From assembly GCF_039822205.1 (NCBI RefSeq), contig NZ_JBAGBW010000016.1, positions 1-49,300 on the forward strand: a stretch of DNA of 49,300 nucleotides, in the 5' to 3' direction. The position numbers were made by a program, and so were the translations under genes. Every line of letters begins with the position of its first letter. Within the stretch, counting starts at the first letter, position 1. The DNA is from Thermodesulfobium sp. 4217-1. GTDB lineage: Bacteria; Thermodesulfobiota; Thermodesulfobiia; Thermodesulfobiales; Thermodesulfobiaceae. Of the stretch, positions 14,050-48,954 are shown one piece after another. The notes below the pieces were generated by a model. That model did not search any database and was not told the DNA's origin. It saw only the letters and a program-made list of their open reading frames with translations.

Positions 14050-14087
14050 ATTATCACCTTGTACACTCTGAGAGAGAAGTAATTAAT

Positions 14088-14113
14088 AAAAAAGGCCGCC
14101 TCGGCGGCCTTTT
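14088..14113 (-). terminator. Rho-independent terminator of the pilin gene
   Basis: An 11-bp stem, AAAAGGCCGCC (14090-14100) with GGCGGCCTTTT (14103-14113), has a 2-base centre and a T run on the minus strand (14088-14093). It lies between the pilin stop (14122) and the yjbQ start (14049), so it would insulate the abundant pilin mRNA. The symmetric A/T flanks mean it may also act on the plus strand. Confidence 0.88.
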
Positions 14114-14121
14114 GAAGTTTT

Positions 14122-29568: not shown

Positions 29569-29603
29569 ATCGTTGCTCCTTAGGAAAAATTTTTATATGT
29601 CTA

Positions 29604-29633
29604 ATTTTAACATATAAAAATAATAAAATTCAA
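29604..29633 (-). promoter_or_regulatory. Promoter of the suf operon
   Basis: Minus-strand TTGAAT (29633-29628) and TAAAAT (29609-29604) are 18 bases apart. A TG just before the -10 (TGTTAAAAT) makes it an extended -10. The start would be near 29597, giving a leader of about 30 bases to the sufC ATG at 29568. Confidence 0.55.
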
Positions 29634-29661
29634 AGAAGGCATCCTGTTCCAGAGTAGTGTA

Positions 29662-29678
29662 AAATTGTCTGACAATTT
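29662..29678. promoter_or_regulatory. Perfect 17-bp palindrome, candidate GntR/FadR-type operator
   Basis: AAATTGTCTGACAATTT has 8-bp arms around a central T. Its core TTGTCTGACAA fits the TnGTnnnACnA pattern known for FadR-subfamily GntR regulators. It lies in the divergent gap between sufC and the NifV-like gene, about 30 bases upstream of the suf -35 box. A looser outer repeat, TGTAAAATT at 29658-29666 and AATTTTACA at 29683-29691, surrounds it. Confidence 0.55.
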
Positions 29679-29744
29679 ATAAAATTTTACAAAAATATCC
29701 ATTTACACTAAAATTTTATAAGAAATATTCAGGAGGTGATAGGT

Positions 29745-31899: not shown

Positions 31900-31954
31900 A
31901 TTTACCTCCTGAATTATTAACCTAAGTTAAACATATTTAAGTATATTGTATAAC

Positions 31955-31983
31955 AAAAAAAATAGGGACAAAAATCGTCCCTA
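31955..31983 (-). terminator. Rho-independent terminator of cstA
   Basis: The stem TAGGGAC (31963-31969)/GTCCCTA (31977-31983) has a 7-base loop and eight T residues on the minus strand (31962-31955), just after the cstA stop at 32013. This is a textbook intrinsic terminator. Confidence 0.92.
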
Positions 31984-32012
31984 CTTCTTTTTGTTATAGA
32001 TTTTGGAAAATT

Positions 32013-35677: not shown

Positions 35678-35712
35678 ATTCTTTTCCTCCTAAAAAATCC
35701 TAAATTTAAAAA

Positions 35713-35919
35713 TTAATTTACGTTGTGATATGGAAGCTGAATCAAAAGTCTTGGCAGGTCAGAGCCCGATAAGACTAAAATATTTGAAAGGCTTCTCTTT
35801 CTTTTTGGGCTCTTATGAAAAAGGAGGTGACTCCTATTTTGCTGTCTTCTGATAATCTTTCCAGAACCCGTTACCCTAAATCTCTTAGCTGCTGCTCTAC
35901 ACGTTTTCATCTTAGGCAT
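35713..35919 (-). CDS. rpmI: 50S ribosomal protein L35
   Basis: A 68-residue L35: MPKMKTCRAAAKRFRVTGSG followed by KIIRRQQNRSHLLFHKSPKRKR. The start overlaps the end of infC by 8 bases. It is slightly divergent after residue 45 but of normal length. Confidence 0.97.
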   Translation of the reverse strand: MPKMKTCRAAAKRFRVTGSGKIIRRQQNRSHLLFHKSPKRKRSLSNILVLSGSDLPRLLIQLPYHNVN

Positions 35920-46671: not shown

Positions 46672-47598
46672 TCATCTAATAAATCTTCTAATGTTAAAAA
46701 CAGAATCAAACACTCCAAAAAAAACTAACGAAAAGCTCAAAAAGGGCAATATTACAAACAACAAAACTATAAATATGCTTATAGTTTTAGATAAAAAAGC
46801 GTTTTTCAAAATCAATTTTTTTGACAGTATATACAAGAGCACAGAAGCCCCTGCAACTATATACACAAAAGTAAGTATCGATTCAATGTTTAAAAAAGCG
46901 TTTTTAAATTCAGTCGGTATCGGTAAAAAGGCTGCTACTAAAGTAAGCAAAAATAAGAGACTTAACTCATAAGGAACGTGAATATCTTTGAAATTTCCAA
47001 ACTTAGTAACTTCAATTTTATAGACATATTTTAAAATATAAGAAACAACTCTATATTGGAAGAGAGACCACAGAAAAAACAACAGTATCAATATAGAGGG
47101 GAGATATATTTCAAAATATTTTACAAATTGTTTAACCTCTTCAGGTGTTACGCCCGAAGACCCTTGATAGTAGGTCACCATAAATGATTCAAAGCTCGTA
47201 TAAATATTGTTTAAAAGATCCTTTGGGCCAGAAAAGATAATATATGCCGCTCCTAAAGCAAATAGCCCGGCAAGAGCTGCAGTAGAGCCGAGCAAAACAT
47301 TTATCGGCTTTTCTCTCTTTAAAATTGCCCCCATAACTATACCCAAAGAAAAATTAATTGAACAAAAAACTACAGAAATTATGTATGGTAGAAAAATAGC
47401 TATAATGATGCCAGATAGAAGCAGGGCAATCATGCCTTGAACAATGCCTTTTTTATACGTGATCACACAAATAGGTGCAGCCATCAATAGAAGCCCCAAA
47501 AAACCTAATGTTGGCACATAAATACCAAATAAAACAAGAAATACCACTAAGGCCGATACTAGCAAAACCTCAATGGCATCAAAGTTTTTTTTAAACAA
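46672..47598 (-). CDS. DUF2232 (YybS-like) membrane protein
   Basis: A 308-residue protein with about eight hydrophobic segments. It sits between rpsR and rplI, the usual location of YybS/DUF2232 proteins in Firmicutes and relatives. The block KEINV-type loops are not distinctive; assignment rests on topology, length and position. A charged loop with a SSGVTPEEVKQF stretch lies near residue 150. Start TTG at 47598 behind AAGGAGG. Function unknown in the family. Confidence 0.78.
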   Translation of the reverse strand: MFKKNFDAIEVLLVSALVVFLVLFGIYVPTLGFLGLLLMAAPICVITYKKGIVQGMIALLLSGIIIAIFLPYIISVVFCSINFSLGIVMGAILKREKPINVLLGSTAALAGLFALGAAYIIFSGPKDLLNNIYTSFESFMVTYYQGSSGVTPEEVKQFVKYFEIYLPSILILLFFLWSLFQYRVVSYILKYVYKIEVTKFGNFKDIHVPYELSLLFLLTLVAAFLPIPTEFKNAFLNIESILTFVYIVAGASVLLYILSKKLILKNAFLSKTISIFIVLLFVILPFLSFSLVFFGVFDSVFNIRRFIR

Positions 47599-47617
47599 AG
47601 GACCTCCTTAAATAAAA

Positions 47618-47686
47618 GTGAGTAGTTAGCTATAGGTCTTGATGTATTCAAGTAAACTACTACAAGTTTAAGTGCTAACTACTCAC
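47618..47686 (-). ncRNA. Predicted three-way-junction RNA element between rpsR and yybS
   Basis: A perfect 13-bp outer stem, GTGAGTAGTTAGC (47618-47630) with GCTAACTACTCAC (47674-47686), encloses two hairpins. One is CTTGA-TGTAT-TCAAG (47638-47652). The other is TAAACT-ACTACA-AGTTTA (47653-47670). On the minus strand it is followed by TTTTATTT and then the yybS ribosome site. It may end most rpsR transcripts, be a processing site, or be a protein-binding RNA. Not a structure I recognise. Confidence 0.5.
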
Positions 47687-47696
47687 GATTAATCTT

Positions 47697-47930
47697 TTAG
47701 TCGACAGTAAATGGCAAAAGAGCGATCATCCTTGCCCTTTTTATCGCTGTAGTAAGCTGCCTTTGATGCTTAGCGCAAGCTCCAGTAGCCCTTTTTGGCA
47801 AAATCTTACCTCTATCGCTTAGATACTTCTTTAAACGATTTACATCTTTATAATCAATAAACTTAACTTTTTCTGCACAAAAAGAACAGGCCTTACGTCT
47901 AACTCTTTTTCTTGTATTCTGTAATGCCAA
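47697..47930 (-). CDS. rpsR: 30S ribosomal protein S18
   Basis: A 77-residue S18 of the zinc-binding (C+) form, with CSFC and CAKH cysteine/histidine pairs and the basic core [20 protein letters not shown], then [12 protein letters not shown]. Start TTG at 47930 behind AAGGAGGGTTTTAA. Confidence 0.97.
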
Positions 47931-48023
47931 TTAAAACCCTCCTTCTATTTCAAGACAATTTAAAATAAGTAATAAAATTTAAAATTAATCAAGTAGCTAC
48001 TTAAAGCTCACGCTCTCCAATTT

Positions 48024-48816: not shown

Positions 48817-48835
48817 AACACCTCCCTATGGGTTT

Positions 48836-48852
48836 TGCCCTCTGTGTGGGCA
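48836..48852 (-). promoter_or_regulatory. Small hairpin in the rpsF leader
   Basis: TGCCC and GGGCA form a 5-bp stem with a 7-base loop between the tRNA-Ser 3' end and the rpsF start. It could separate or process the two transcripts, or take part in S6-S18 feedback, but I do not see the CCG bulge typical of the known S6:S18 motif. Confidence 0.35.
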
Positions 48853-48860
48853 GGGATAAA

Positions 48861-48954
<94 letters not shown>

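Follow-up and report, generated by a model that had tools for sequence, protein, structure and literature searches.

The window, meaning the whole 49,300-nt stretch of DNA analysed here, is an entire contig of a 2.0-Mb draft genome from a heat-loving bacterium, probably a Thermodesulfobium to judge by the low G+C and isolated position. In this 69-contig assembly (G000) the 23S rRNA gene was found and the 16S rRNA gene was not, probably reflecting an assembly gap. At the contig edge (49224-49300), 12-bp direct repeats encode a repeated MEKG motif in the 5' end of an ORF that matched no Pfam family. Comparisons within the genus covered the window species and three relatives (G001, G002, and G003), every other genome being related at the level of the same domain only. 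On the minus strand runs a series of genes in the order tRNA gene, rpsF, ssb, rpsR, yybS (DUF2232), rplI, dnaG, and tsaE, with the element under study between rpsR and yybS. Since the operon genes all lie on the minus strand, the relevant RNA is that of the minus strand. The features of the locus are as follows:

47618..47686, minus strand: the whole element, an intercistronic inverted repeat / RNA hairpin of 69 nt
47674..47686, minus strand: 5' arm of the basal stem as transcribed, GUGAGUAGUUAGC (four-species alignment)
47631..47673, minus strand: variable interior, 43 nt here and 41-43 nt in the relatives
47618..47630, minus strand: 3' arm of the basal stem, GCUAACUACUCAC (four-species alignment)
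47610..47617, minus strand: T-rich stretch 3' of the stem, TTTTATTT (alignment and folding)
47697..47930, minus strand: rpsR (ribosomal protein S18), the upstream gene (Pfam PF01084)
46672..47598, minus strand: yybS-like membrane protein (DUF2232), the downstream gene (Pfam PF09991)

The element lies inside the rpsR-yybS gap (47599-47696), 10 nt past the rpsR stop codon and 19 nt short of the yybS start, so that an earlier description of it as filling the gap was right about its place but passed over the uncovered 10 and 19 nt. Read on the minus strand, the stem is followed by UUUUAUUU, then by AAGGAGG, and then by the TTG start codon of yybS, just as had been described for a T-rich stretch leading into the yybS ribosome site. 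This arrangement of a U-rich stretch and a ribosome site 3' of the stem exists only on the minus strand, which is the message strand. The T-rich stretch is weaker in the relatives (CTTTATTT, TTTATGTA, and TTGTTTAA).

Several other intergenic and gene-start sequences were noted as well. The gap between the tRNA gene and rpsF (48817-48865, minus strand) contains a leader in which AUCCCUGCCC-n-GGGCAAAACCCAUAGGGAGGUG is common to all four species, and which folds into a hairpin and a UCCCU/AGGGA helix over the Shine-Dalgarno sequence, with a conserved unpaired C. This leader had no Rfam match, although it looks like the known S6:S18-binding rpsF_leader (PMC4647458). A short palindrome in the ssb-rpsR gap (47931-48023), AAGTAGCTACTT, was present in the window species and G002 and absent from G001 and G003. 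At the start of yybS (47560-47598, minus strand), ~35-40 nt are nearly invariant in the four species. This segment includes codons that are unusual in AT-rich DNA, 10 of 12 synonymous codons are identical against 44% in the gene, and it is possibly part of a translation-control region. Outside the operon, three species were compared over a 234-nt gap between co-directional genes (35678-35911), where 75% of the columns, and one unbroken run of 35 nt, are invariant; a leader RNA, an unrecognised gene, or a regulatory region are all possible there.

The perfect 13-bp stem that the sequence-only reading had noted in a 69-base element was recovered in full, with 13 arm pairs joining 47618-47630 to 47674-47686 around 43 enclosed nucleotides. 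The minimum free energy of the element was -25.4 kcal/mol (z = -4.2), and none of 200 shuffled sequences was equally stable. Arms of at least 13 did not occur in any of 8 first-order Markov simulations of the window. The window itself contains two such repeats with loops of up to 60 nt, namely the element and an AT-only palindrome that sits in a divergent promoter region. In each of the four species, the basal stem had a predicted pairing probability of 0.92 or more over the range 37-60 C. The 13-pair inverted repeat is real and beyond chance expectation.

The element was present in the identical gap in all four genomes of the genus that were compared, and a search with the pattern GTAGTTAGC-N(25-50)-GCTAACTAC gave exactly one match per genome, each time in this gap. 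In the alignment the core of the 5' arm reads GGGUAGUUAGC or GAGUAGUUAGC across the genus. The basal stem has 13 pairs in the window species and in G002, 12 in G003, and 11 in G001, and variation in the arms consists of one A-U to G-U change and the loss of one or two pairs from the outer end of the stem. Of note, the four genomes form two close pairs and amount to about two to three independent observations. Between these species pairs 23/26 and 24/26 arm bases were identical, compared with 45-49% identity at the fourfold-degenerate sites of five operon genes. The corresponding binomial tails against the fourfold background were 2.8e-5 and 5e-7, values which assume independent sites and which, with four genomes in two close pairs, are indications rather than exact probabilities. 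Identity in the loop was about half between the species pairs, which is the background level. Coding constraint is unlikely to lie behind the conservation of the arms, as the loop length varies by 1-2 nt among the species. A search for compensatory changes had been proposed as a check of the element, and it had little power: because the arms hardly vary beyond the single A-U to G-U change and the lost outer pairs, covariation is largely uninformative, and support for the element rests on sequence conservation instead. The best reading of these data is that the shared, functional part is a basal stem of 11-13 bp just 3' of the rpsR stop codon.

The interior is a different matter. In the window species, structures with at least two interior hairpins made up 92% of the predicted ensemble at 37 C and 82% at 55 C, and the two hairpins that had been described inside the stem are indeed part of the minimum free energy fold. 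They are no general trait of the genus, as the fraction with at least two hairpins at 37 C fell from 0.92 in the window species to 0.39 in the nearest relative and to 0.00 in the other two. The interiors of G001 and G003 are predicted to fold as a single rod, and helices 2 and 3 of the interior are broken in the relatives. We therefore rejected the three-way junction as a conserved trait, with two of the four species folding the interior as a rod. Because the interior differs in the relatives, the title of three-way-junction RNA describes the main fold of one species and not the conserved element, of which only the basal stem is common to the genus.

Searches beyond the genus returned no credible copy among 141 other genomes. 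Rfam 15 gave no match at 47618-47686, either at the gathering threshold or with E up to 5. With a covariance model made from these four sequences, only the four genus members gave strong scores; as the element is near-palindromic, the minus-strand model also picked up a weak signal on the other strand. A borderline match in G131 (L138, E 0.004) proved to be a short hairpin formed by repeats, in a different context that has no rpsR, and we set it aside as chance. The same verdict was reached for a resemblance of the 3' arm to 23S rRNA (10/11 bases, GCUAAAUACUC, L127 position 598): the 5' arm had no match to 23S rRNA, the matched region is not known to bind S6, S18, or L9, and rRNA mimicry was rejected. 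Within the window genome, near-matches to the arms (up to 2 mismatches) were no commoner than for a reversed control pattern. The copy-number search also disposed of the suggestion that this might be a mobile hairpin element, as each of the four species has a single copy, at the orthologous position. Although its inverted-repeat anatomy is what a REP, a MITE, or an IS200-like end would show, arms that are better kept than synonymous coding sites speak against such an origin as well, and we give it a negligible chance.

We wondered what the position of the element might say about its role. Among 105 rpsR loci from other bacteria, a sample biased towards Clostridia, 77 had a terminator-like hairpin within 150 nt 3' of the gene, compared with 9/105 shuffled sequences and 3 of 101 upstream stretches taken as controls. 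Operons thus frequently have a boundary at the rpsR 3' end. The element occupies this boundary, yet the gene run goes on along the same strand. The account that we favour, at somewhat less than an even chance, is that of a genus-specific intercistronic RNA boundary element that splits rpsF-ssb-rpsR from yybS-rplI-dnaG by stabilisation, processing, or partial attenuation. The hairpin on the rpsF-ssb-rpsR-yybS-rplI-dnaG message would mark a segment boundary, and during or after transcription rpsF-ssb-rpsR would gain a structured, protected 3' end. The upstream half, encoding ribosomal proteins and SSB, would then accumulate above yybS-rplI-dnaG. The main route would be a block to 3'-5' decay once the downstream part has been cleaved, and some transcription attenuation might occur where the U-tract is better. 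Co-transcription across the rpsR-yybS gap, a difference in segment abundance, and its cause are what we infer here. The genes past the element encode a membrane protein, L9, and primase, and equal dosage of the yybS-rplI-dnaG products with S6/S18 is not expected, presumably so in the case of yybS and dnaG. Conservation at one site, arm identity, the stable stem, the boundary at the rpsR end, and the types of downstream genes all count in favour of the boundary element, which is the most economical account of them.

The same position also invites another explanation, in which the element ends transcription behind rpsR incompletely, as a leaky intrinsic (Rho-independent) terminator or an attenuator, with part of the polymerases reaching yybS-rplI-dnaG. 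It sits where many other bacteria have their rpsR terminators, UUUUAUUU directly follows the stem in the window species, and it is the most stable U-tailed hairpin detected 3' of any gene in the window. The stem of 11-13 bp exceeds the at least 5-6 bp of an intrinsic terminator, but the loop does not fit: about 3-8 nt would be expected and the compact terminators of the window have 3-5 nt, whereas all four species have an internally structured loop of 41-43 nt. A terminator scan did not pick up the element. The 8-nt tract contains 7/8 U in the window species, 6/8 in G002, and 5/8 in both G001 and G003. The gaps of the window were also aligned over the collinear stretches of G001 and G003. In these alignments, 55% of the arm columns were invariant in a compact terminator-like hairpin at 14050-14121, and another terminator-like hairpin near 31950 (gap 31900-32012), with a conserved T run behind it, had a rewritten stem that still pairs, while 88% of the columns in the rpsR-yybS arms were invariant. 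The only other gap with a comparable invariant count was the divergent region at 29569-29735. Its long conserved AT-rich palindromes, TTATAAAATTTTA and TGTAAAATTTTATAAATTGTCAGACAATTTTACA, are probably a promoter/operator region. The long loop, the fading U-tract in the relatives, and the unchanging arms thus disfavour an efficient terminator and speak against a standard intrinsic one; the element may possibly act as a weak terminator in the window species, and a leaky terminator or attenuator appears rather unlikely overall. The sequence-only reading had offered a regulatory RNA or a processing site in place of a simple terminator, and this part is favoured by a position and sequence kept in four species and by arms conserved far above synonymous sites. 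As a point of method, terminator-like stems drift within one window and this stem does not, a contrast that sets specific RNA elements apart from generic terminators even with four genomes.

Letter-by-letter conservation of the arms exceeds the need of a pure stabiliser, i.e. a stem without fixed sequence, which hints that a protein or a nuclease recognises them. Since the arms are kept in this way, sequence-specific recognition stays a serious rival. In a protein-binding regulatory RNA, a ribosomal protein of the operon (S6:S18 or L9) or another factor would sit on the stem and control yybS-rplI-dnaG, or else determine how stable the upstream half is. Conservation of both helix arms at the letter level fits such a site, as do the first yybS codons with their unusual synonymous conservation (10/12 against the 44% background), and the L17DE motif offers a precedent: this conserved RNA lies behind a ribosomal protein gene, and proteins encoded in the operon upstream of it have been suggested as its ligands (PMC7247131). 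Nevertheless, the lack of an Rfam match, of a conserved unpaired motif inside the element, and of any resemblance to 23S rRNA beyond the one 10/11 match of the 3' arm all weigh against it, and the rpsF_leader-like leader at the operon start likely provides an S6:S18 site already. We consider protein binding unlikely on balance. The narrower proposal that a ribosomal protein or other factor reads the GGGUAGUUAGC/GCUAACUACUC helix behind rpsR, controls the yybS-rplI-dnaG half, and so links ribosome supply to primase expression is decidedly unlikely; if the arms are such a binding site, ribosomal-protein and primase expression would be linked. Alternatively, the stem might serve translational coupling by bringing the rpsR stop codon beside the yybS ribosome site, with an outer helix that opens as ribosomes terminate on rpsR. 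A weak candidate for this helix would form between GACU, at the stop codon of rpsR, and AGGUC, at the Shine-Dalgarno sequence of yybS. The stem is only 10 nt from the stop codon and 19 nt from the start, and one-sided changes keep the consensus outer pairs (GACU/GGUC), but the outer helix was predicted in only one of four species at 55 C, and the coding and Shine-Dalgarno roles of its bases already account for their conservation, which makes a coupling fold quite improbable. Conserved arms around a variable spacer would also be expected if a protein read two inverted half-sites in DNA. Such an operator is very improbable, as it would sit within an operon between co-directional genes, with half-sites 41-43 bp apart and a spacer of no fixed length, no conserved internal promoter in the gap alignment, and no close arm copies above background elsewhere in the genome.

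Altogether, the element is real, conserved, and limited to the genus, and it is most likely an RNA hairpin that is ordinary in kind. It is an addition to the rpsF operon of an isolated, deep-branching lineage, conserved there and not listed as an RNA element before. Its nearest counterparts differ from it in several ways. Intrinsic terminators behind rpsR in other bacteria share the site directly 3' of the gene and a stable stem; the element differs from them in its structured 41-43-nt loop, its conserved arm sequence, the weak U-tract of the relatives, and the adjoining co-directional genes. The rpsF_leader belongs to the same operon and ties an RNA structure to S6/S18 expression, but it lies upstream of rpsF, its H1 stem contains the Shine-Dalgarno sequence, and its protein site has two conserved cytosines (PMC4647458), whereas the element lies behind rpsR, with the Shine-Dalgarno sequence outside the main stem and no conserved CC in the loop. 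The L17DE motif of Firmicutes (PMC7247131) is likewise a conserved RNA structure behind a ribosomal protein gene, though of another gene and in another phylum.

The preferred reading, a boundary between operon segments, brings the element closest to two other systems. One is the cip-cel operon, found in a clostridial bacterium, whose intergenic stem-loops direct cleavage and stability and set segment stoichiometry (PMC10311766); these also lie between genes, which are co-transcribed, and cleavage was shown there, whereas our case is built on sequence. The other is found in E. coli, where the operon segments that are stabilised end 3' in stable hairpins, often lacking a U-tract, and these protective hairpins are conserved between species (PMC5927463). 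Like these intra-operon hairpins of the malE-malF type (Dar and Sorek 2018, PMC5927463), the element is stable and conserved in evolution, borders the upstream segment on its 3' side, and does not have a strong U-tract in all species. It differs from them in arms that are conserved nearly letter for letter, and in being known from its sequence, where theirs are known from RNA ends and decay rates.
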